A stretch of 42,964 bases of DNA from Desulfobacterales bacterium (lineage in GTDB: Bacteria; Desulfobacterota; Desulfobacteria; Desulfobacterales; JANQIE01), in NCBI GenBank assembly GCA_028282295.1, contig JANQIE010000293.1:1-42964 (forward strand). The letters are read 5' to 3'. This document shows positions 143 to 13,086 of the stretch, one piece after another. The notes under the pieces were generated by a model. It saw nothing but the letters and a program-made list of their open reading frames with translations. It was not told the DNA's origin and ran no database searches. Position 1 is the first letter of the stretch. Every line of letters begins with the position of its first letter. Both the position numbers and the translations under genes were made by a program.

Positions 143-199
143 TTAATTCAGGGCGCCTAAAATGTGAAATTATTTTTGCATGAGCCCCAAGGAGAAATC

Positions 200-1414
200 A
201 TGTCAACGGTTTATATCGCCCGGCAGCCTATCTTCAACAGCCACAAGAAAATTTTTGGGTATGAATTACTGTTCAGGGACGAACCGGTCAATTTTGTTAA
301 AACCATTGACGGCGACATGGCCACTTCGGAATTGATCAGCAACACGCTGCTGATCGATGATATCGCCAACTACACCGGCGGCAAAATGGCCTTTATCAAT
401 TTTGCCAAAAGTCCCCTGGTCAACTTGATACCGCTGATGTTTCATCCGTCGCAGATCACGGTGGAAGTACTTGAAGACATCAAGCCGGACCAACAGGTCG
501 TCGACGCCTGCCGTAAAATCGTCAGCAAAGGATTTACGCTGGCCCTGGATGACTACAGTTTCGAACCGCACAGCGATCCGCTGGTGCCGATTGCCGATAT
601 GATCAAGGTCGATTTAAGCCTGATCGATATCGGCAAGGAACAAGGGCGCATCTCGCGTTTGATCAAGCAGGGCAAGGTGTTGCTGGCTGAAAAAGTGGAG
701 AGTTATTCCGAATACGAAAGCGCCCTTGCCGCCGGTTTCGAGTTTTTCCAAGGGCATTTTTTTGCCACCCCGGAGATGATTGAAACCAAACCGTTGCCGA
801 CGTCGCGGGTCAACCTGCTGAACCTGATGACCGTCATCGCCCGCCAGGAGCTGGACTACGATGAACTGGATCAGTTTATTTCCCGCGATGTCACCATCTC
901 ATATAAACTGCTGCGTTACATCAACTCGGCCTTCTACAAAACCATTCATGAAATCGAATCGATCCGGCAGGCGATCGTCTTTTTGGGTGAAAACGAAATT
1001 CGCCGCTTTATTGCCCTGATCGCCATGGCCAAACTGGCCGACGACAAACCGGACGAGTTGATTCGGGTGTCGGCGGTCAGGGCCCGCTTTTGCGAGCTGA
1101 TCGCCAACCAGTTTAATTTCAGTGCCGGTGCGCAGGAGTTTTTTACCGTCGGCCTGTTTTCGCTCATCGACGCCATCATGGACAACACCATGGAGCAGAT
1201 TCTGAAAAACCTGCCGCTGGGCACGCCCATCAAGGAAGCCTTGCTTCAAACCGACGGCGAACTGACCGACTGCCTGCAACTGGCCATGGCCTACGAAAAA
1301 GGCAACTGGAACGACGCCGGGGCACTGGCGCGTAAACTGGACATCGACGAAGGCGTCCTGCCACGTTACTACCTGGAAGCCTTGACCTGGGAGTTGAATT
1401 TTTCCCGGTTGTAA
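200..1414 (+). CDS. EAL-HDOD signal transduction protein (YuxH-like)
   Basis: This 404-residue protein has an N-terminal EAL-type domain (about 1-200) and a C-terminal HDOD domain (about 205-400). The opening, with IARQPIF and GYELLFRD, is typical of the YuxH family. Many positions used by active EAL phosphodiesterases seem retained: E22, N67, D117-D118 (LDDYS), K136 (IKVDLS), E164 and Q184. Cyclic-di-GMP hydrolysis or binding therefore cannot be excluded, although many family members are degenerate. The HDOD part is recognisable from SYKLLRYINSAF and the following SIRQAIVFLG. I start at the ATG at 200 because GGAG lies 6 bases upstream; an in-frame ATG at 164 lacks such a site. It reads in the same direction as the kinase operon that starts 150 bases later and may be functionally linked, but the gap allows a separate promoter. 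Confidence 0.9.
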   Translation: MSTVYIARQPIFNSHKKIFGYELLFRDEPVNFVKTIDGDMATSELISNTLLIDDIANYTGGKMAFINFAKSPLVNLIPLMFHPSQITVEVLEDIKPDQQVVDACRKIVSKGFTLALDDYSFEPHSDPLVPIADMIKVDLSLIDIGKEQGRISRLIKQGKVLLAEKVESYSEYESALAAGFEFFQGHFFATPEMIETKPLPTSRVNLLNLMTVIARQELDYDELDQFISRDVTISYKLLRYINSAFYKTIHEIESIRQAIVFLGENEIRRFIALIAMAKLADDKPDELIRVSAVRARFCELIANQFNFSAGAQEFFTVGLFSLIDAIMDNTMEQILKNLPLGTPIKEALLQTDGELTDCLQLAMAYEKGNWNDAGALARKLDIDEGVLPRYYLEALTWELNFSRL

Positions 1415-1467
1415 GGGCGCGCGCAAAAAAATACCCCCTTTCCGGATGAGCATGATTTATTGAAATA

Positions 1468-1473
1468 TTGACA
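1468..1473 (+). promoter_or_regulatory. Candidate -35 element upstream of the PocR kinase operon
   Basis: TTGACA is followed 14-17 bases later by an AT-only stretch (TTTTTTAAAAAAA) that could serve as the -10 region. The AT stretch is also the centre of a short perfect palindrome, TTGCTTTTTTAAAAAAAGCAA-like, at about 1482-1502. A promoter here would read into the gene at 1565. The -10 is poorly defined, so confidence is low. Confidence 0.3.
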
Positions 1474-1564
1474 AATCGGCATTGCTTTTTTAAAAAAAGC
1501 AAATATCCGTCGTCCCATAATTGGATCCTGCTGTCGACTTCTGAATAAATGCAAGGGGGGAATT

Positions 1565-3526
1565 ATGCCGAAGACCGGAACATCGCTGACGCCGTGGCCT
1601 TGTCATCCCAACAATCTTACCGAGCGCATTTCCAAAGACCTGGTGACCCTGGTGATCGCCGGCATGTGCGAAAGGCTGAACCGGCCGGTCGCAATTATGG
1701 AACCCTGCGGACCCGGCGACCGTGATACCGGCGCCTCGGCCTGTTGTGATTTCTCCCCTTTGTATCCCGCCCCGCGACCCTCCACCCGCTATTCCGATTT
1801 TTGTTTGCTGCTCAATAAGATTCCCCAGGCCGAAAAAGAATGACTGGACGACAGCTTCAGGCGCGCCCGGGATATGGCAGCCAAGGAAACGGATCATAAA
1901 AAACCGCAAAAAAAACGCTGTCATTTGGGGCTGATCAACTATAGCTGCAAACTGCAGATAGAAAAGCAGACGCTGGGTGTATGCTCGGCGGGTAAATTCA
2001 TCGAAGACGGCGACGAGGCGCTGGTGCAGGAGCGGGTTGCCAGGATCTGCCGCGACAAACTCCAGTTGCCGGAGAAAAAAATAAAGCAACTGCGGGCAAA
2101 AATTCCAATGATCCCGAAGCGGGACGGCAAACGGTTTGCCGCCCGGTTTGACAAAGAAATAGTGAACCTGCAGAAAATGATCCGCTACTACCTGGCCCAA
2201 TATCGCCGCAAGCAGGAATGGGCCTGCCAGGAATCGGTTCTGGAATTTATCGATCTGGCGCTTGATAACCCGGCCGGTTTTCGGACCGGATTGCAAGAGG
2301 CGCTGGCGGCTTTACGCCGGTTCTTCATGGTGGAGCATTTATCCCTTTTTCTCTCCTCCCGGCCGGGTGAACGCAACTTGCCGCTGTTTGCCCAATCCGG
2401 ACTGAAACGTGAAGAATCCGAGGCGGTCTATTTTGATTGGCGCAAAGCCGGCTTGCCCGACGTGCCCGACGCCCAGGGCGGCGGTTTGCTGAATTGGCAT
2501 CGCCGGGCCCGCTCTAAGAGCGACTTTCCGGAAAGATATCTGCGACGCGGTGTCAAAGGCACCGGACGGCGTTTTTTCCGCAATGCCGCCTATTTCGTAC
2601 CGGTCCGGGCACAGCATCTGGGGGTGTTGATAATCGGCCCCTGGACCAGCAGCGCTATGCGAACCTCCAATACATCCTGGCAGGATCTGGGCGGCCGCAA
2701 ATTTCTGGACAGTATCGGCAACCTGCTGGTCATCCGGGCCATCTCCCAACAAGCACTTTTTGCTTCCAAGGAGACGGAGGAACGCCTGCGTTTGATCGTT
2801 TCCCTGGCGGCCCATTCGATTCGCACCTCTTTGCAACATCTGCTCAATTCCTGTGCGGTCATTGCCCATAACTGGCGAAAACCGGAATGCAACAACGCGG
2901 TGAGCCGGTCCTTGGGCCATCTACGCAATACCATCCAACAGACGACGAGAAACGTGGAGATTACGCTGGCGGCACCGGAAACAGCCGTGACACCGGCTAT
3001 CCATGCCAGCGAGCTGACGATCGTGGAAGTCAATCTGGCGACCTTGTTGTCCAACTGTGCGGACCGGTTTGAATCCCACGCTACCGACAAGCAGATCGAA
3101 CTGGTGCTGTTTGACGAGATCGAGAACATGCCGGTGATTTACGGCGATTACTACATGCTGGATCTGCTGTTCGCCAACATTATCGATAATGCCATTAAAT
3201 ACTCCCAGGCTGATAGCCAAGTCAGGATCCAGGCCGGCAAGATTACACCGCAGGAAGTGGAGATCATTGTCAATGATCTGGGTTGGGGGATTCCCGAAGA
3301 CGAGTTGCAACTGGTCTTCGAGCAGCAATACCAGTCGCCGCGCATCAAGAAGAAAGACCGCAAGGGGGTCGGCCTCGGGCTGCATCAGTCGCGTAAATTT
3401 GCACGCCTGCATGGCGGCGATATCACCTGCACCAGTCGCCCCTACCATACCGGTGCAAATCTGCAGAATCACGTGGTTCGTTTTTTTGTGCGGTTGTCCC
3501 GCGACCTTGAAATAAACAATCAATAG
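1565..3526 (+). CDS. PocR-GAF sensor histidine kinase with in-frame TGA, candidate selenoprotein
   Basis: One reading frame of 654 codons runs from an ATG with a strong site (AAGGGGGG, 4 bases away) to TAG at 3524-3526. It is broken only by TGA at 1841-1843 (codon 93). The N-terminus (about 15-150) is a PocR ligand-binding domain: FC at 79-80, the TGA at 93, and CHLGL starting at C119. In PocR domains a Cys normally sits 13 residues after the first one, exactly where the TGA falls. A GAF-like region (about 165-310) follows. The kinase core has H417 in AHSIRTSL, an N box (NIIDNAIKYS, about 538), DLGWGIP and GVGLGL (about 601). A stem-loop (1855-1885) follows the TGA, so selenocysteine insertion is plausible. 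Alternatives are a Cys-to-stop mutation giving a pseudogene, or re-initiation at the ATG at 1874 yielding a 550-residue protein without an intact PocR domain. First gene of a four-gene operon. Confidence 0.75.
1855..1885 (+). promoter_or_regulatory. Putative bacterial SECIS stem-loop after the in-frame TGA
   Basis: CTT 1855-1857 pairs with AAG 1883-1885, GGC 1860-1862 with GCC 1880-1882, and GCC 1865-1867 with GGC 1876-1878, separated by small internal loops. The apical loop CGGGATAT (1868-1875) begins 24 bases after the TGA and has G at its second position. Published bacterial SECIS models ask for a loop roughly 16-37 bases downstream with a G among its first two bases, so this fits. It was folded by eye only. 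Confidence 0.5.
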
Positions 3527-3534
3527 GGGGGGGT

Positions 3535-4017
3535 ATGGAACCCGTTCGTATTTTAGTTGTTGAAGATGAGCTTGAGGAGCCGCTTGAAGATAACTTCATT
3601 ATCACCTTGCTGGAGGATGAAGCGTATGACATCACAATTGCCAGGACCGGCGAAGAAGCCTATGCAAAAATGGCGGCGGGCAGATTCAGTTTGATCCTTT
3701 TGGATATGATGCTGCCGCCCTCCGAGAGCGCGAGCACCACCCGGTTCAACGGCATTAAACGGTTGGACATGGGGGTGCATCTGCTCGAACTGTTGCGCAA
3801 GGGCGAATTCGAACCCAAAGGCGCCCGCAAAGACACCCTGGTGGTCGTGGTCTCGGCCGTGCCCGGCCTGGAACGCTGGAAGAAAATAATCGGCTTGCTC
3901 GGCAATGAACAATGCCTGCTGCCCAAACCGGCCGAGCCGGAAGTTATTTTTGAGGTTGTCCAACGCACCCTGGCCGATGCCGGGCTCATTGCAATGAACC
4001 CCAACGACGAAAAGTAG
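3535..4017 (+). CDS. Response regulator receiver protein, single domain
   Basis: A 160-residue protein made of one receiver domain. The acidic pocket is VVEDE (E10, D11), the phospho-acceptor is D57 in LLDMMLPP, and the conserved lysine is K131 in LPKPAEP. Between the acceptor aspartate and the next strand there are about 20 more residues than in a typical CheY (about 61-100, including a Ser/Thr-rich piece), so helix 3 or its loop is enlarged. No output domain is present, so it probably acts through protein contacts, for instance with the GAF-like or HD protein downstream. The gene starts 8 bases after the kinase stop. A run of eight G (3526-3533) serves as ribosome-binding site. Its likely partner is the PocR kinase. 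Confidence 0.9.
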   Translation: MEPVRILVVEDELEEPLEDNFIITLLEDEAYDITIARTGEEAYAKMAAGRFSLILLDMMLPPSESASTTRFNGIKRLDMGVHLLELLRKGEFEPKGARKDTLVVVVSAVPGLERWKKIIGLLGNEQCLLPKPAEPEVIFEVVQRTLADAGLIAMNPNDEK

Positions 4018-4023
4018 GTTGTC

Positions 4024-4749
4024 ATGGCGGATAATACAATTGAATCGCACAAGGAATTGGTTGCATTTTCAAACAGACTGATCACGACCTTGGAGAAATC
4101 GGATACTATTACGTCACTGACCATTGAGAATCTCCTGGAGGCCGTATGCACCGCCCTGCAGGCGGAGTGGGCCGGTATAATCAACCCGGTCGATGAATGG
4201 AAGCCTCTGCATTGCACCCACAACTGGCCGGAGCGGTTTCCCACCAAAAAACAAATCGATTTTTTTGAATCCCATCCAATGTTGAAAAAACGTCCCTTTT
4301 CCCTGGAATCCGAAAAAGATTTGAGTAGTTTGGGGCTCAACGGCGCGCTGAACGTCGCTATCGTGCCAATTAAGTGGGCGCTGGTACCTGGTAAAAGCTG
4401 GTTTTTGATCATCGGCAACAAAACAAAAAAGCTGAATAGCGCGGACGATCTGCCCTACTACACACTTCCGTTGTTGCGAATCATTGCGTTGCTATTTACC
4501 CTTACTAGTGGTGTGGTCGTGGTGAATAGGCTTATGTATTTATCTGAAAAAAGTTGGGAACAAGCTTTGCTTAGCGGTTCGCGATCAGAGATAAAAAACC
4601 GCGCGAGGGAATTAAAATCATTTCTATCGGGAGAAGAGGAACGATTATACGATGAAGTTGAGGCCTCTTTGTTGGATGCTAGTTTGTCATTAGAAATAGC
4701 CCCGACACGCAGGATTCACGATAACAGTGAAGTTGCTAAGAGGGGGTAA
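4024..4749 (+). CDS. GAF-like domain protein of unknown function
   Basis: The 241-residue product resembles a GAF sensor domain in its first 170 residues: a helical start, ENLLEAVCTALQAEWAGII, then alternating strands ending in SWFLIIGNKT. No enzymatic motif was seen and I do not recognise a named family. The last 80 residues are charged and helical, with no membrane-anchor signal. Spacing of 6 bases to the receiver gene and 5 to the HD gene puts it firmly in the operon. The region from about 4500 to 4740 is visibly more AT-rich than the rest of the operon, which may indicate a different origin for the tail. Confidence 0.7.
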   Translation: MADNTIESHKELVAFSNRLITTLEKSDTITSLTIENLLEAVCTALQAEWAGIINPVDEWKPLHCTHNWPERFPTKKQIDFFESHPMLKKRPFSLESEKDLSSLGLNGALNVAIVPIKWALVPGKSWFLIIGNKTKKLNSADDLPYYTLPLLRIIALLFTLTSGVVVVNRLMYLSEKSWEQALLSGSRSEIKNRARELKSFLSGEEERLYDEVEASLLDASLSLEIAPTRRIHDNSEVAKRG

Positions 4750-4754
4750 AAAAT

Positions 4755-6731
4755 ATGCCGCAAAAAAAAAGAAAGGGAGGACCCTTCACCCGGCTGGCCA
4801 AATGCCGGCAGGCTGTTTGGGAGGACTACAAACGCAAACGTGTTGCGGACGAGCGGCAAAACACCGCGTTGTTGGAAACAATTGTATCCGCGTGGCAAAA
4901 AGACGGCCAACGCCGCTTCCCCCAGGGTGCCCCTGAATTCACCGGCGCCAGTATCGATCAGGAAACCATCGACCGGCTCTACACGTTCGTCAATCAGAAC
5001 GGGGGGCGTCTTGATTGCGCGCGCACCCTGTTGTTCGCCCTGCACTATCACGCCAAGGCGCAGCTTAACGGAATTGACGACAAAAAGATCGGATTTTGCG
5101 ACCGGCTGTTTAAATCGGAAGATGGTGCCATGGAAGCATTGCCGGCCCAGGTCGGCGTGCTTCTTGAAAGCTACCTGGCGACATGGGCGTCAAGGGACGA
5201 TGCCACCGAATTGATCGTCACTTCGCAATGGCTGGCCCTGTGGTTCGGTCTGCGCCTGCTGGAATCGCACAGCGTTGACGCCGGTCGCATCGCCAGATTG
5301 ACGCCCCACAACCGCGCGCGTTACTACGTCCATTTTTCAGCCTATTTTCTATACCTCATTCATATCATCCGCTGCTACGGTCAGCCCACCTACTTTCACT
5401 TTTCCGATATCACCGAGGGCTACGCCGGCTACATGGACGCGAGTCTTTTCCTGTTGGCCGACTACGCGCATCATGAAACCGGCCTTTCCGAGCAAGTCCC
5501 TTTGTACCGTGTGCTGACCGACGCCTGGGCCTCCGAGGCATTGTTGTACAGCATCCGCAAGGGTTACCGGGACCACCTGCATCATGTCTGGAACGTGTGC
5601 CTGTTGGGATTGCTTTTCTTCGAGGCCGGCATGATGCAAAAATTGGATGCGGCCTGGGAAACCTATCCCCCGGACCGGCAGAACAAGATCAAGCGCAATT
5701 GGATTCTCGCCGGGTTGCTGCATGATATCGGTTATGCCCTGGATCTGAATCGCTACCTGATCCCCAGGTTGAAACCGTTGCGTTGCTTTCAGGCGTTGCG
5801 CGATTTTTTGGACGGGTTGCACGGCGAATTCAATAAATTGGAAAAGAGCTTGTCCCGGACGTTGAAGAACTACTTCTCCTTTGCCGATGCGAACACCCGC
5901 TTGGATCACGGCGTCACCAGCGCCATGATTTTGCTGAATCTGGAGTGCGCCGACGAAACCCCGCATCAAAATGCCGGCGCCTCGCTCCAATGGATCGAAG
6001 AAATCGCCACTTGTGTCGAGGCGATCGGCGTGCACAACCTGCGACACGTTCCGGTCAACCCGGTGGCAAGCCCGCTGGCCTTTCTGCTTCTTTTGTGCGA
6101 TCACATTCAGGAATGGGATCGTCCCCGCATCGAAACCACCCAGTTGGGACGGGCGTTCAGTGGTCTGCTGGCCAATCATCAGCGCGTGTATCCCGAGTGC
6201 ACCACCGTCGTCAACCGGATGCGCACCAACCTTGTCTGGCAGGACAACGCCGCAGCCCTGCCGGATGCTGAACTGCAGATCGCGCTCGACTACAAGAGTG
6301 CCGCCAAAGAGCAATACGAACCGGCCGTGATCTGGTTTCAAAACAGTCTGGATTTTCAACGGGTTGACATGGATGCCTGGCCCGATGATTTCGAGATCGT
6401 GCTGCGTTGCGTGCACCCGCACAACGGCACGGTGCAGTCAAACGCCGATTATCTGGAGATGGATTTGTTTGAAGATTTTATCCGGGAACAAGACCGCTAT
6501 TTGAGTCTGCTCGATTGGTTGCATGCCTCGCGCAACGGCTGCAACGGGGTGCACTACGAACCCCATGGCCGGTTGTGGGACGAAGAAGCCGGCGAGTATG
6601 AGCCCTTTGAGATTTTCTCCTGGCATTTTGCCTGCGGCGGCCGGCCGTGCCGCACCAAAAGCAATGTGCCCGCCGATTTGTACGGTGATTACCTGGGCTG
6701 GAAAAAACAGCGGTTGCGTGAAGCGATGTAA
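4755..6731 (+). CDS. HD-domain protein, putative metal-dependent phosphohydrolase
   Basis: A 658-residue soluble protein with a central HD-type core: a histidine cluster DHLHHVW (about 271-276), LLHDIGY (HD about 322-323), LDHGVTSA (about 382), a histidine in AIGVHNLRH (about 426) and CDHIQEW (about 448). This order of H, HD, H and D is what metal-binding HD hydrolases use, so activity on a nucleotide or phosphoester is plausible but the substrate is unknown. The first 260 residues and the last 150 do not match anything I recognise. The ATG at 4755 follows the GAF gene by 5 bases. As the last gene of the kinase/receiver/GAF operon it may be the effector, its activity controlled by the receiver. 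Not a classical HD-GYP protein: no GYP motif is seen. Confidence 0.75.
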   Translation: MPQKKRKGGPFTRLAKCRQAVWEDYKRKRVADERQNTALLETIVSAWQKDGQRRFPQGAPEFTGASIDQETIDRLYTFVNQNGGRLDCARTLLFALHYHAKAQLNGIDDKKIGFCDRLFKSEDGAMEALPAQVGVLLESYLATWASRDDATELIVTSQWLALWFGLRLLESHSVDAGRIARLTPHNRARYYVHFSAYFLYLIHIIRCYGQPTYFHFSDITEGYAGYMDASLFLLADYAHHETGLSEQVPLYRVLTDAWASEALLYSIRKGYRDHLHHVWNVCLLGLLFFEAGMMQKLDAAWETYPPDRQNKIKRNWILAGLLHDIGYALDLNRYLIPRLKPLRCFQALRDFLDGLHGEFNKLEKSLSRTLKNYFSFADANTRLDHGVTSAMILLNLECADETPHQNAGASLQWIEEIATCVEAIGVHNLRHVPVNPVASPLAFLLLLCDHIQEWDRPRIETTQLGRAFSGLLANHQRVYPECTTVVNRMRTNLVWQDNAAALPDAELQIALDYKSAAKEQYEPAVIWFQNSLDFQRVDMDAWPDDFEIVLRCVHPHNGTVQSNADYLEMDLFEDFIREQDRYLSLLDWLHASRNGCNGVHYEPHGRLWDEEAGEYEPFEIFSWHFACGGRPCRTKSNVPADLYGDYLGWKKQRLREAM

Positions 6732-6819
6732 ATCGGATCGGCCATGCGCACCAAGTCCTTTGCTGCCGACGCTTCACCCCAACGCTGCAAAGGTCGAAGG
6801 TGCGCGTTTGAAAACCCGA

Positions 6820-8499
6820 CTACTCTTCTTCGGCGTGAAGCGGTGTTTCGCCGATCAAGCCACAGGCCAGCGTCGCTTGTTGGGGGGCGCGCAGATGCGT
6901 AATCAGTGCATGGGCCAGATTCTGTCCCACGGTGATTTCCTCATCGACCACCACCAAAGCTCCTTTTTTTTGTAAACTCTCCACAAAACGATGGTAGCGC
7001 GCCCTGGTGATGACTGCCAGGTCGGGGGATAGTAGTTTGAGTTTCGCAATGACTTCCCGGCAGGTTTTGGGATCGGGCAGAGCGATCACCGCGGCGCACA
7101 GGCGGCGTCCGCCGGCATGTTCCAAAACCGCGTCGCTGCGGGCATCACCGATATGCACCGGCAGTTTCATCCGCCGGACCTCGGCGGCGGTGCGCGGGTT
7201 GAGTTCGATCACTGTCGGACGGATGTTGTGCCGCAGCAGGGCCCGCGCCACCGCTTGACCGGCCGGACCGAAACCGATGACCAGGATACGTCCGGCCTCC
7301 GGGGTCTGGTCGTCAGAATGCGGCGGTTGTCCCGCTTTAGTCGGACGCAGACGCTGAAACACAAGCCAGGCCCAGCGCTCGGCATAGGTGATCATGTACG
7401 GGGAGATAAACATCGACAGGATCGTAACCGACACCACCAGGGCAAATTGATCCGCATCGAGCAGCCCACCATGATGCGCCGCCGCCGCAAGCACAAAGGA
7501 AAACTCCCCCACCTGGGCCAGGGTAAGACCGGTGGCCAGTGCCTGTACCGGCCCGTTTTTCAAAAAACGGGCAATGCCGTAGACAATGCCTGTTTTCAGC
7601 ACCACGACCACCACCAGCGCCGCCACCACCCAGTGCAGGTGACGGATAAACCAGGCCGGGTCCGCCAGCATGCCCACCGACGTGAAAAACAGGGTTACGA
7701 ATAGGGTCCTGATGGAGCCGATATCGGCGCGGATCTGGGTGGCAAACGGTGATTCCGCCAGCAGCATGCCGGCCAGAAACGCCCCCAGGGCCGGCGACAA
7801 ACCCAAAGCATGCGCACTCCAGATCGCGCCCAGGGCGATGATGATGGCCAGCAGGATCATCAATTCGCGATTGGCGAACATATCCTTGGTCATCAGTACC
7901 CGCGGCACCACGTGGTAAAACAGGCCGTAGTAGCTGATCACCAGACAGACCGCCCCGCCGATGATGCGACCGATATGCATCCAGATCGCGGCGCCGTCGC
8001 CTCCCTGCGTGAGCACTGTGACCAGCAACACCAGCGGCACCACGGCAATATCCTGGAGCAGTAAAATCCCCAGTGCATTGCGGCCGTACACCGAATCGAT
8101 AGTGGCCCGGTCCACCAGCACCCGCAGCACCACCGCCGTGGAACTCAGGGCCGCCATGGCCCCCAGGGCGGCGGCCGTGGCCGGCGGGGTTTGCAGCGCA
8201 AGCAAGCCGGCAAACACCGCCAGGGTGACGATTACCTGGAGACTGCCGCCTACGAGGGCCGTGGCACCCAGTTGCCGCAGGCGGGAGAAAGAAAATTCGA
8301 GACCGATTGAAAACAACAGCAGCGAAACACCCAATTCGGCGACCTGTTCGACCACGTCGGCATTAAACAGTAACGGGCCGACCAATGTTCCGGCGACCAG
8401 ATAACCGATGATGGCGCTTTGCCCCAGCCGCTGGGCCAGCGCTCCTAAAACAAACGCGGCCAACAGCAGCAAAACCAGTTCCATAAGTAGATGCCACAT
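6820..8499 (-). CDS. Kef-type cation:proton antiporter (CPA2) with RCK domain
   Basis: A 559-residue protein with about 12 hydrophobic helices over residues 1-380, then a cytoplasmic Rossmann domain beginning at about 395 (ILVIGFGPAGQAVARALL, a GxGxxG nucleotide-binding turn). The pattern LLLFSIGLEFSFSRLRQLG after helix 3 is characteristic of the CPA2 family (KefB/KefC, YbaL). It probably exchanges K+ or Na+ for H+ under control of NAD(H) or another ligand bound by the RCK domain. It ends soon after the RCK_N domain, without an obvious RCK_C module. It is convergent with the HD gene and divergent from the DMT exporter, so the 205-base gap at 8500-8704 should hold both promoters. KefB versus KefC versus YbaL cannot be separated here. 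Confidence 0.9.
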   Translation of the reverse strand: MWHLLMELVLLLLAAFVLGALAQRLGQSAIIGYLVAGTLVGPLLFNADVVEQVAELGVSLLLFSIGLEFSFSRLRQLGATALVGGSLQVIVTLAVFAGLLALQTPPATAAALGAMAALSSTAVVLRVLVDRATIDSVYGRNALGILLLQDIAVVPLVLLVTVLTQGGDGAAIWMHIGRIIGGAVCLVISYYGLFYHVVPRVLMTKDMFANRELMILLAIIIALGAIWSAHALGLSPALGAFLAGMLLAESPFATQIRADIGSIRTLFVTLFFTSVGMLADPAWFIRHLHWVVAALVVVVVLKTGIVYGIARFLKNGPVQALATGLTLAQVGEFSFVLAAAAHHGGLLDADQFALVVSVTILSMFISPYMITYAERWAWLVFQRLRPTKAGQPPHSDDQTPEAGRILVIGFGPAGQAVARALLRHNIRPTVIELNPRTAAEVRRMKLPVHIGDARSDAVLEHAGGRRLCAAVIALPDPKTCREVIAKLKLLSPDLAVITRARYHRFVESLQKKGALVVVDEEITVGQNLAHALITHLRAPQQATLACGLIGETPLHAEEE

Positions 8500-8704
8500 A
8501 TACCCCTTCCTTGCGGATTTTCATTGTTGAACCGGTTCGACCTTAGCGTAGCCGGACCGTGTCGGCAAGTCCCTTGGCGTCCATGTCGGTCCAGTTTTAT
8601 ACTTTTGCTGAATCGGATCGCAAGAATCGGATTGTATCCGTAGCCGCGCAAAGATATAGTCCTTTTCAAAAAATATCATAACCTATCTCAAAAAAAGGTT
8701 GACG

Positions 8705-9631
8705 ATGAACCGTGCAAACAATCAATCAATGGGGCTGCGTGAATGGAGCCTGTTGCTCCTGCTATCGATCATCTGGGGCGGGTCGTTTTTCTTCGGCAAA
8801 GTCGCCGTGGCGCAGGTGCCGCCCTTTACGTTGGTGCTTGGCCGCGTGGGGTTGGCGGCCCTGCTGCTGAATCTGTTCGTGATCGCCGCCGGTCAGCGCA
8901 TGCCTCGGTCGCCGGCCCTGTGGGGACGCTTTCTGGTGATGGGTGCGCTCAACAACATGATCCCCTTCAGCCTGATTTTTTGGGGGCAAACCCGCATTGC
9001 CAGCGGATTGGCGTCGATTCTCAACGCCACCACGCCGTTGTGGGCCATATTGCTGGCGCATCTGTTGACACACGACGAGCGGCTCACGCCGGGCCGTTTG
9101 GGCGGAATCTTGTTGGGGATCGCCGGGGTGGTGATGATTATCGGCCCCGATGTCCTGCACGGGGTCGGCTTGAATGTCCTGGCGCAATTGGCCGTGATCG
9201 GTGCCACGGTTTCGTATGCCCTGGCCGGTATTTTCGGCAAGCAGTTTAAAGACCTGCCGCCGATGGTCACGGCCACCGGTCAACTGACCGCCGGCGCGCT
9301 GATGGTGGCCCCGGTGGCGCTGTTGATCGATCAGCCTTGGACCCTGCCCCTGCCGGGGGCGTCGATCTGGGGCGCTGTAGTCGGCTTGGCGGTGTTGTGC
9401 ACCGCCCTGGCTTACGTGATTTACTTCAAAGTGCTGGCTACCGCCGGCGCCACCAATTTACTGCTGGTCACCTTGCTGATTCCGGTCAGCGCCCTGCTGC
9501 TCGGCATGCTGCTGTTGGGCGAACGTCTGGATGTGAGACATTTTCTGGGAATGGGGATCATCGGTATCGGATTGATCACCATCGACGGGCGTATAAAATT
9601 GTTCCCCGGCCGTTTCAGGCGCCATCCCTGA
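8705..9631 (+). CDS. EamA/DMT-family permease
   Basis: A 308-residue inner-membrane protein with about ten hydrophobic segments arranged as two EamA repeats (about 15-140 and 155-295). IIWGGSFFFGKVAV in helix 1 and the closing LLLGERL...GMGIIGIGL are typical of drug/metabolite transporters of the RhaT/YdcZ type. Substrate unknown; exporters of amino acids or metabolites are common in the family. I start at the ATG at 8705, 6 bases after AAAAAAGG; a TTG two codons earlier is less likely. It is monocistronic, running into a convergent CoA-transferase gene 44 bases away. Confidence 0.9.
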   Translation: MNRANNQSMGLREWSLLLLLSIIWGGSFFFGKVAVAQVPPFTLVLGRVGLAALLLNLFVIAAGQRMPRSPALWGRFLVMGALNNMIPFSLIFWGQTRIASGLASILNATTPLWAILLAHLLTHDERLTPGRLGGILLGIAGVVMIIGPDVLHGVGLNVLAQLAVIGATVSYALAGIFGKQFKDLPPMVTATGQLTAGALMVAPVALLIDQPWTLPLPGASIWGAVVGLAVLCTALAYVIYFKVLATAGATNLLLVTLLIPVSALLLGMLLLGERLDVRHFLGMGIIGIGLITIDGRIKLFPGRFRRHP

Positions 9632-9675
9632 AATTAAAAAAAGCCTGGCGTTTTGCTCCGAATTTATGATTGCCG

Positions 9676-11037
9676 TCAGATGGCTTCGAACGGGATCACC
9701 CCCTTGGGGACGCCGTCCTTGAGGGCCTCGGCGGGATGGTGCCATTCAGGGCTGTCGTAGATTTCCTTGAGGAGTTGGGAACGGGTTTGCGGTTCGGCCA
9801 GATGAGCGATGGCCACCGCCCGTTCGGAAAAGGCCAGACCACGGGGATCAAACGCGCCGTATTCGGTTACAATCACCACCTGGTCGGCGGCGATGGCGGT
9901 TGTCGTAATCCCGGCGGGACACTTGTCGACAATTTTGCTGGTTCCGTTGGCGGTGGTGGCTTTCAAGGCGATGATGGGCACGCCGCCTTGGCTCAGGGCG
10001 GCGCCGCGCAAAAAGTCGGCCTGACCGCCCACACCGCTGTAAATTTTGCGGGCCTGCAACGAATCGGCCCAGATGTTACCATGCAGGTCCACGCCGATAG
10101 CCCCGTTGATGGCCACCATGCGCGGCTGCCGGGCGATATTCAGAATGTTGTTGGTAAAATCGCAGGGACGGCTTTGCACCGAGGAATTGTAGTCGAGCCA
10201 GTCGTACCCCTCCGGTGCACCGGACAGAAAAATCGAGGACATGGCGAAGTTGGCGTGGGTAAAGGTGTGCCGGTTGGTGACGGCGCCGGCTTCCACCAGC
10301 CGTTGCATGGCGTCGGCAAACAGTTCGGTGTGAATGCCCAGGTCCTTGACGCCCTTGGCCAAAATAGCATCGGTCACCGCTTCGGGTACCTGGCCGATGC
10401 CGTACTGCAACGTGGCGCCGTCCGTCACAAAGTGTTCGGCGATCATCCGGCCGATGCGCCGGGCCGCCTCATCAGGCGGTTTGACCGGGCTGACCGGCAA
10501 AGGATAGTCGGTGTCCACCAAATAATCGATCACCTCACCGGGGATCGTGCAACCGAGAACGAACGGCATACGCGCGTTGCGTTCAGCGATCACCACACCC
10601 CCCTCATGCTTGACCGTTTCCACAGCAGCCAGCACCGCCTCAACTGTGGTCCCTAAACTATAGTTGCCGCCGTTGTCCGGCCCGCTGACGGAGACAAGCG
10701 CCACATTTGGTTTCAGAGTCTGGCGCACCTGCCGGGGAATTTCAGACAGGTGCAGCAATTGATACTTGGCCCGGCCCTGGTTGGTTGCTTCGCGTGAAGC
10801 CGGTCCATTGAAGATGATCCGGTGGGTGATCCGGCGGCAGGCCGCTGCGCTGAACAGGGCGTCGATATCACCCAGCAACAACACGCCGACCAACTCAACC
10901 TGGCGGATTTGCTCGTCGGACGCAAGTGTGGAGAGTAATTGCTGCGGCGTGGCAGCGTTGCCGGCGGTATAAATGCGGCTGCCGGGTTTGATGATGGCGG
11001 CATTGATAACGGCTTCCGGATTTGGCACCTTCTTCAC
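9676..11037 (-). CDS. Acetyl-CoA hydrolase/4-hydroxybutyrate CoA-transferase family protein
   Basis: A 453-residue class I CoA-transferase. LGIHTELFADAM carries the catalytic glutamate at position 238, the residue that forms the glutamyl-CoA thioester in the 4-hydroxybutyrate CoA-transferase branch. Other family marks are ATPQQLL near the start, GGNYSLG, YGIGQVPEAV and the C-terminal EYGAFDPRGL block. It should move CoA between acetyl-CoA and a short carboxylate, or hydrolyse acetyl-CoA; the exact acceptor is not visible. The start is the GTG at 11037, preceded by AAAGGAG at a good distance; extending to 11070 gives an atypical N-terminus. A YcbK-like gene lies 69 bases upstream in the same direction. 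Confidence 0.88.
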   Translation of the reverse strand: MKKVPNPEAVINAAIIKPGSRIYTAGNAATPQQLLSTLASDEQIRQVELVGVLLLGDIDALFSAAACRRITHRIIFNGPASREATNQGRAKYQLLHLSEIPRQVRQTLKPNVALVSVSGPDNGGNYSLGTTVEAVLAAVETVKHEGGVVIAERNARMPFVLGCTIPGEVIDYLVDTDYPLPVSPVKPPDEAARRIGRMIAEHFVTDGATLQYGIGQVPEAVTDAILAKGVKDLGIHTELFADAMQRLVEAGAVTNRHTFTHANFAMSSIFLSGAPEGYDWLDYNSSVQSRPCDFTNNILNIARQPRMVAINGAIGVDLHGNIWADSLQARKIYSGVGGQADFLRGAALSQGGVPIIALKATTANGTSKIVDKCPAGITTTAIAADQVVIVTEYGAFDPRGLAFSERAVAIAHLAEPQTRSQLLKEIYDSPEWHHPAEALKDGVPKGVIPFEAI

Positions 11038-11106
11038 GGGATATCTCCTTTGAAGATTTGCAGTTTGCAAGTCTGTCGAGTCGCCGGATGGCGGACAGGC
11101 GGCGCA

Positions 11107-11709
11107 TCAGCCGCGCCAATACCTCACCGGGCCGACGTCGATATGGATGAAGTTACGGCGGGGGTAGTAGCCGACGCCGCCGATTTCGTAGTATTTGGCC
11201 ACCCGGCGCAGATCGCTTAACCGGCTGCCCGGCAGGCGGATATCAGCGGCCTGGCCGTAGAGATGGTAGCTGTTGCGCGCGGCGTTTTTGTTTTTCTGGC
11301 GCAGACGGGCGTTGGATCTGGCGGAACGATAGCCTGAGAGCAGATGAATCGGTTCAGGATTGTGAAGGGTGTGGCTGAGTGCAAACAGCAGATCGAGCAG
11401 GGTGGTGTCGATCGGCTTGACACGTCCGCTCAGATGGTCACGAAACAGATAGTTTATTTGCGCCAGGGCCGGGGGCAGGTAATATCCGTCCGCCCAGTAG
11501 ATCACTTCGATGTGTTCCTTGGTGAACGCGTTTTTGCAGTTCAATTTACGGATGTATTTCCAGGATGGGCCTGGTGTTTCCGAGCCGGAAGCGGTCAAGG
11601 GAAAAATGGCGCCCAATGTTGCCGCCATACCTAGTTTTAAAAAGTTGCGCCGGGTGATCAGGGGATCTTCAGTATGCGAAATCCGCGGCCAGTCGTGTTT
11701 CAAATCCAT
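11107..11709 (-). CDS. Tat-exported YcbK-like (DUF882, peptidase M15-type) protein
   Basis: A 200-residue protein with a twin-arginine signal: TRRNFLKLG followed by a hydrophobic stretch ending near SGSET (about residue 43). The mature part matches the DUF882/M15_2 family: SGYRSARSN (about 126), SYHLYGQAADIRL (about 147) and a final FIHIDVG with the metal-binding His-x-Asp. These are the usual zinc ligands of D,D- or L,D-carboxypeptidase-like enzymes, so it probably trims peptidoglycan outside the inner membrane. The Tat signal argues for the long start at 11709, even though the ribosome-binding site is weak. A single repeat end lies 55 bases upstream of the start. Confidence 0.87.
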   Translation of the reverse strand: MDLKHDWPRISHTEDPLITRRNFLKLGMAATLGAIFPLTASGSETPGPSWKYIRKLNCKNAFTKEHIEVIYWADGYYLPPALAQINYLFRDHLSGRVKPIDTTLLDLLFALSHTLHNPEPIHLLSGYRSARSNARLRQKNKNAARNSYHLYGQAADIRLPGSRLSDLRRVAKYYEIGGVGYYPRRNFIHIDVGPVRYWRG

Positions 11710-11763
11710 ATCAGCTCAAAATCCAACAACACCTCACAGAGGTCGAAATGCGTTTTACTCACC

Positions 11764-11779
11764 GTTTCCGGATGGACAC
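11764..11779. repeat. Single end of repeat family R1
   Basis: GTTTCCGGATGGACAC, the same terminus as in the copies at 1-142 and 37108-37279. No matching partner end is seen nearby, so this is a solo or decayed end. It sits between the YcbK-like gene start and the poly-C tract. Confidence 0.7.
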
Positions 11780-11924
11780 TATTGATAAATTCATACTTTT
11801 ATCTCTTTTTTTTCGCATTTTGACAGAAAAAAGACAATCAGGAATTCCCTGAATATGGGGTTCGAAAAACCTTAAGCCGGTGTTTCAATTTTATGCGCCG
11901 GATTCAGGTGTTGAGTCGATTCTG

Positions 11925-11941
11925 CCCCCCCCCCCCCCCCC
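11925..11941. repeat. Homopolymer tract of 17 C
   Basis: Seventeen consecutive C residues in a non-coding gap of about 255 bases (11710-11964), 24 bases beyond the stop of the rhodanese-YceI gene. Such tracts are prone to slippage, and length in an assembly is often unreliable. It is too far from any start codon to act as a coding phase-variation switch. Confidence 0.9.
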
Positions 11942-11964
11942 GGCGTGTGAATGAACGCAAGGCG

Positions 11965-12894
11965 TCACCGGGCGACGACCTTGATTTGCAGGCTGATCAG
12001 GTCAAATACCAGGTGCATGCCCAGATGTTTAAAAAAACGGCTGGAGCCGTAAACGATGCCCCAGCGAGTTCGATCGATATCGAAATGGGCCTCGGCGCTG
12101 ATCGCGCCGCCATCGACCGGATTGACGGTGGCGGTAAAGGACAACGGTGCCTGGATCCCGCAAAGGTCCAATGTGCCGTCCACCGCATAGTTCGGCGCGC
12201 TTAAGGAGGGCTCCGCTACCGGTTGGGCGGTGTTGATCTCAAAAACGGCTTGGGGGAATCGTTGGGTAAAGAAAAAATCGTCGGATTTCAGGTGCTCGAT
12301 GAGCACCGGTTGCAGTTCATCTCCCTGCAGATTGGTGTTTTTGATCGAATTCATATTGATGGTGAAACGGCCGTTGACTTGGCCGCCGGCGACACGGATT
12401 TGTCCCTCGGTCAGACGCACGGTGCCGTGGTGTTTGCTGTTGGGGTTACGCCCGGCCCATTCGATGAGGCTGTTTTCAGCATCCACTGCATATGTGCGGT
12501 CGTTTTGCAGGATTGCCGTTTCATCGGGCTCCGGTGCGTCCGGGGTTTCACCCTCAAGGGGCAAGCCGGCTGCGCGCCAGGCCGCCAGGCCGCCAGTTAA
12601 AAGGGTGACGTGCTGATGGCCGGCACGCAGCAGTTTGGCGGCGGCGGTTTGGGCATCCAGTGTCCGGTCGTCGGCACCGTAGACCACGATTTGGGCGGAT
12701 TTGTCCGGCGCGATGGTCCTGGTTTGGTCGAGAAAGGTCACTTGGTAGACGCAGGCGTTGTTTGCTCGCGGCAGGTGGACCCGGCGGTACTGTTCCTCGG
12801 GCAGCGTATCAATGAGGATCAGCGGTTTGTGTTCATCAAGCCACCCCTTGAGATGTTGCGGGGCGATTTGCTGGATTTGGTTTGAGTTGTTCAT
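11965..12894 (-). CDS. Rhodanese-like/YceI-domain fusion protein
   Basis: A 309-residue cytoplasmic protein (no signal peptide). Residues about 5-120 are a rhodanese-like fold: LILIDTLPEEQYRRVHLP, then VVYGADDRT and LLTGGLAAWRAAGLPLEG. The active-site loop that normally carries the catalytic Cys reads ADDRTLDAQ with no cysteine, so sulfurtransferase activity is unlikely. Residues about 135-309 are a YceI lipocalin-like domain (SLIEWAGRNPNSKHHGTVRL, FTINMNSIKN, YAVDGTLDLCGIQ, FDIDRTRWGI) that usually binds isoprenoid-type lipids, typically in the periplasm. The start at 12894 is 6 bases from AGGAGG; ATG at 12900 abuts that site and the one at 13020 gives an atypical extension. Confidence 0.88.
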   Translation of the reverse strand: MNNSNQIQQIAPQHLKGWLDEHKPLILIDTLPEEQYRRVHLPRANNACVYQVTFLDQTRTIAPDKSAQIVVYGADDRTLDAQTAAAKLLRAGHQHVTLLTGGLAAWRAAGLPLEGETPDAPEPDETAILQNDRTYAVDAENSLIEWAGRNPNSKHHGTVRLTEGQIRVAGGQVNGRFTINMNSIKNTNLQGDELQPVLIEHLKSDDFFFTQRFPQAVFEINTAQPVAEPSLSAPNYAVDGTLDLCGIQAPLSFTATVNPVDGGAISAEAHFDIDRTRWGIVYGSSRFFKHLGMHLVFDLISLQIKVVAR

Positions 12895-13086
12895 ATTCAT
12901 CCTCCTGTGGTGTGTCCGCGTTTGCCCTCCTGCGGGTGGCGGATTAAGCGAAGGTTGGGCGAAATCATCCGAAAGGTCGTGTTGCGAAGCGCTTGTTTGA
13001 AAATAATCGGCCTTGCGCACGGGTCAACCGGCGGTTGACCAAATGGCTGTCATTTTTTTCATTTTGGTGCTTATTATGTTTAGATC

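Follow-up and report, generated by a model that had tools for sequence, protein, structure and literature searches.

A selenocysteine candidate at an invariant PocR cysteine of a histidine kinase from a Desulfobacterales bacterium

The kinase gene and its neighbourhood

The window, meaning the whole stretch of 42,964 nucleotides analysed from a Desulfobacterales bacterium, harbors the genes of a two-component pair, a PocR-histidine kinase and its partner response regulator (Table 1). A single frame runs through the kinase gene, and its sole interruption is a TGA at codon 93; the earlier note had described such a frame, and the ORF reading bears it out. The PocR domain is recognized whichever way this codon is treated, as its Pfam score amounts to 35.0 bits when the TGA is kept as a stop and is higher when a Cys is placed there, the gathering cut-off being 23.9 bits. 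The HATPase_c match is that expected of a sensor histidine kinase. HisKA has no Pfam match in the kinase; the AHSIR motif (H417), conserved in both orthologues, is a likely H-box. No second lesion is found in the 653 codons, and the response regulator is intact. The ORF reading, the Pfam matches, and the alignment with the orthologue L057 thus describe an in-frame UGA within an otherwise intact and conserved gene and operon.

Table 1. Features of the kinase locus in the window, and the control selenoprotein TGAs of the same genome (G000)
Feature	Coordinates	Strand	Evidence
PocR-histidine kinase gene, 653 aa across one TGA	1565..3526	+	ORF; orthologue L057 421-2370, 41% identical, full length
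PocR sensory domain, residues 73-189	1781..2131	+	Pfam PF10114, 39.3 bits (codon 93 read as Cys)
TGT encoding C80, first Cys of the invariant triad	1802..1804	+	24-domain alignment
In-frame TGA at codon 93, where the triad has its second Cys	1841..1843	+	24-domain alignment; TGT in L057
SECIS proposed in the earlier note, a weak stem-loop (core 1860-1882, loop 1868-1875)	1855..1885	+	Not above chance
TGT encoding C119, third Cys of the invariant triad	1919..1921	+	24-domain alignment
HATPase_c catalytic domain, residues 530-630	3152..3454	+	PF02518, 66.7 bits
Response regulator of the pair, a lone receiver domain of 160 aa	3535..4017	+	Gene order as in L057; 144 aa align at 46% identity
Control TGA, L126	12254	-	
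Control TGA, L126	8778	+	
Control TGA, L107	7338	+	
Control TGA, L107	16887	-	
Control TGA, L158	5685	+	
Control TGA, L094 (selD)			

Directly 3' of the response regulator are two ORFs, 4024-4749 (241 aa) and 4755-6731 (658 aa), neither of which matches Pfam at a threshold as loose as E = 1; they may encode output or partner functions. Among the neighbouring genes examined (164-13020), none was recognized as a microcompartment or diol gene. An AlphaFold2 model of residues 1-215, computed without an alignment, displays a mean pLDDT of 36 and was set aside.

The TGA codon, the PocR cysteine triad, and the relatives of the kinase

When 24 PocR domains of the order are aligned, full invariance is confined to three columns, those of C80, codon 93, and C119. 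C80 is located 13 residues before the TGA and C119 26 residues after it, a spacing that the earlier note had rightly matched to the PocR cysteine triad. With X at position 93, the canonical PocR profile alone does not put the middle Cys column on this residue; codon 93 is assigned to that column because L057 aligns there with the canonical Cys-Cys spacing. At the aligned codon L057 possesses TGT (Cys), and this codon, together with the invariant column of the 24 domains, establishes that homologues have Cys where the kinase has UGA. A profile search found no solved PocR structure.

Relatives were searched for with the N-terminal 412 residues against 389 genomes of the class, with a two-sequence profile against 22 genomes of the orthologue's family, and with an N-terminal profile against 241 more-complete genomes of the order, a set overlapping heavily with the earlier one. 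These searches yielded L057, one decayed copy, and otherwise partial matches only. L057 is the only full-length orthologue found; it belongs to a different family within the order, and its matching response regulator follows it. The decayed copy (L059/L063, in G200, contig C13) belongs to a congener of the orthologue's genome and matches residues 10-49 and then from about residue 370, the middle being missing. The comparison of homologues at codon 93 that the earlier note had called for therefore returned a Cys in L057 and, within these searches, no TGA-bearing relative in a second organism. Genome contigs of close relatives gave kinase-domain matches only, and viral contigs and plasmids gave nothing useful. 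As the kinase is sporadic in the order and decayed in G200, gene loss is plausible.

The ~150 best PocR domains listed for the order (389 genomes) include one that is interrupted by a TAA and none that is interrupted by a TGA; divergent PocR copies with a TGA may lie beyond these best matches. The TAA case (G170:C426:62739-63224, 173 bits) is likely a broken gene and is not a selenocysteine (Sec) case.

Selenocysteine decoding in the genome and the SECIS test

The same genome encodes a tRNA-Sec (72 bits, UCA anticodon), SelA (602 bits), SelB (359 bits), and SelD (365 bits), and the SelD gene is itself interrupted by an in-frame TGA. Judged by its genes, the organism decodes Sec; the search for this machinery suggested by the earlier note thus succeeded, and several selenoprotein genes were found along with it.

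Five of these came from a codon-usage scan of 0.99 Mb, about 18% of the genome and including the window, for stops with good codon usage on both sides in the same frame. A first version was swamped by antisense shadow frames, and the final scan required the frame to outscore the other five. It yielded 56 stops. By inspection, the TAA and TAG matches are gene ends, noise, or adjacent genes sharing a frame, and none is a clearly broken gene. Mid-gene TGAs without a nearby restart are found in two formate dehydrogenases, a redoxin, an HdrD/GlpC-like Fe-S oxidoreductase, a Prx-like protein, and the PocR kinase; one more TGA lies at a gene 3' end. The two dehydrogenases were named by Pfam, as molybdopterin oxidoreductases of the formate-dehydrogenase type, and the other three by motif: UPFC (UxxC type) for the redoxin, UGHE for the HdrD/GlpC-like protein, and UPYC for the Prx-like protein. 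Matching types appear in a prokaryotic selenoprotein inventory (PMC13188914). Since the five other genes with such a mid-gene TGA belong to known selenoprotein families, a mid-gene TGA in this genome usually stands for Sec. With the Sec machinery present, these five genes all being of selenoprotein families, and no clear TAA or TAG case, the TGA at an invariant Cys is therefore a serious Sec candidate.

Five TGAs from the scan and that of SelD provide six controls for the SECIS. All six are followed by an apical loop beginning with GG (GGUC, GGUCU, GGC, GGC, GGC, and GGA) atop 6-9 bp of unbroken stem, which starts 17-23 nt past the TGA, a type of hairpin observed at 1.0% of ordinary codon positions. 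None follows the kinase TGA, where the best GG loop sits on a 3-bp stem at 26 nt. The generic bSECIS rule is more permissive, with an upper stem of 4-16 bp (PMC13188914); even so, no hairpin after the kinase UGA combines a stem of at least 4 bp with a G at loop position 1 or 2.

The earlier note had proposed the stem-loop at 1855-1885 as the SECIS. Its description is accurate as drawn: helices CUU/AAG, GGC/GCC, and GCC/GGC carry a loop, CGGGAUAU, that begins 24 nt after the TGA and has G as its second base. It is set aside as evidence for a SECIS, as the fold is at chance level (z = +0.53; 138 of 200 shuffled sequences matched or bettered it) and fails both the 4-bp minimum and the pattern of the six controls. 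A comparable hairpin, of -9 kcal/mol or lower, is present at 51% of ordinary codon positions. A search of the organism's genome with the Rfam SECIS_1 model gave no match, and it is uninformative because the model also missed all 14 controls. A cmscan of 1500-2200 returned no match.

In L057, the 45 bases past its Cys codon contain a SECIS-like hairpin, at a distance of 20 nt, in which 4 bp carry a GGCU loop. It was considered as a fossil SECIS and set aside, since 4-bp hairpins with GG loops occur at 5.7% of ordinary codons.

Interpretation and comparison with known systems

The Cys/TGA pair is real. Sec insertion is unproven, and it weighs about the same as a recent nonsense mutation or an assembly error. 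A Sec-containing PocR sensor kinase would be the best explanation, a matter of judgement rather than of a computed posterior, and receives about half of our belief. In such a two-component sensor kinase, the second of the three invariant PocR cysteines would be replaced by Sec, inserted at UGA 1841 by the endogenous SelB and tRNA-Sec through a weak or atypical SECIS. The fuller proposition, Sec at this Cys inserted by way of a SECIS that departs from the type seen in the other selenoprotein genes of the organism, is held a shade more tentatively, at a little under an even chance. Sec, C80, and C119 might then form a thiol/selenol site, metal or redox in nature, which would control the kinase and the adjacent response regulator. 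Counting against Sec are the absence of a SECIS by the six-control pattern, the lack of a second TGA case among the relatives found, and the rarity of the gene, with its decay in G200.

Much of this would equally suit a recent nonsense mutation, in which an ancestral TGT or TGC became TGA by one base and left a fresh pseudogene ending after 92 residues. The absence of a SECIS after the TGA argues for it, as do the scarcity of the kinase gene in the order, its decayed copy, and the one TAA-interrupted PocR among the best ~150 listed. Cys is moreover one step from TGA; the kinase gene offers 37 one-step routes to TGA, of which 16 begin at Cys codons. Nevertheless, the chance of striking a triad Cys is just 1.4-8%: a TGA at a triad Cys represents 1.4% of the one-base changes creating any stop in the gene, and 8% of those creating a TGA fall there. 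The kinase frame is free of further lesions, its partner regulator is intact, and the absence of any convincing TAA- or TAG-broken gene in the 0.99 Mb scanned lowers this reading further. It is a possible explanation, credited with roughly a third of our belief.

An assembly or base-calling error at 1841-1843, the true codon being TGC or TGT, is unlikely. The assembly is a draft in 326 contigs and L057 has TGT at this codon, both of which are compatible with an error; however, it must have fallen on an invariant Cys, and the scan met no comparable stray stop. UGA followed by C is a leaky context, and C does follow the kinase UGA, while an in-frame ATG lies 30 nt past it. The kinase might hence be produced without Sec, either by near-cognate readthrough at UGA-C or by a restart at ATG 1874 that would give a kinase with half a PocR. 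Such a bypass is very improbable, as no ribosome-binding site with good spacing precedes 1874 and a restart would split the PocR domain between the second and third Cys.

If the Sec-containing kinase is real, the presence of Sec in a sensor would suggest selenium chemistry serving signalling, and would draw attention to the unexplained, strictly conserved PocR cysteines. PocR has been proposed as a sensor of simple hydrocarbon derivatives (Anantharaman and Aravind 2005, as cited in PMC4207490), and no account of the role of its cysteines was found in the literature searched. Independently of the outcome, a within-genome SECIS yardstick has been obtained, and a tempting Cys/TGA pair fails by that measure. 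Such a yardstick is useful for assessing Cys/TGA candidates in draft genomes.

The closest known architecture is that of PocR-domain histidine kinases (PF10114) such as those of PDU1D microcompartment loci (PMC4207490), which likewise combine PocR and kinase beside a response regulator and possess the invariant Cys triad. Here, conversely, the PocR is divergent, its middle Cys codon is a TGA, and the neighbourhood differs in its gene content, as noted above. Regarding Sec, the kinase resembles the selenoproteins of its own genome (the two formate dehydrogenases, the UxxC redoxin, the HdrD/GlpC-like and Prx-like proteins, and SelD), which share the same Sec machinery and have TGA where homologues have Cys, as inferred for these controls from known motifs. 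What sets the PocR kinase apart from all six is that it lacks their hairpin, with its GG-first loop borne by 6 bp or more of stem at 17-23 nt. A text search of the 2026 prokaryotic selenoprotein inventory (PMC13188914) returned no PocR or histidine-kinase family. A study of marine deltaproteobacteria lists, for Deltaproteobacteria-bbl-31, a histidine kinase among its new selenoproteins predicted by bSECISearch (PMC8318568). This putative selenoprotein shares with the PocR kinase its enzyme class and its in-frame UGA, and it too comes from a marine deltaproteobacterium. A Sec-containing signal-transduction sensor of the kind considered here would, if true, add a variant to the known selenoproteins.
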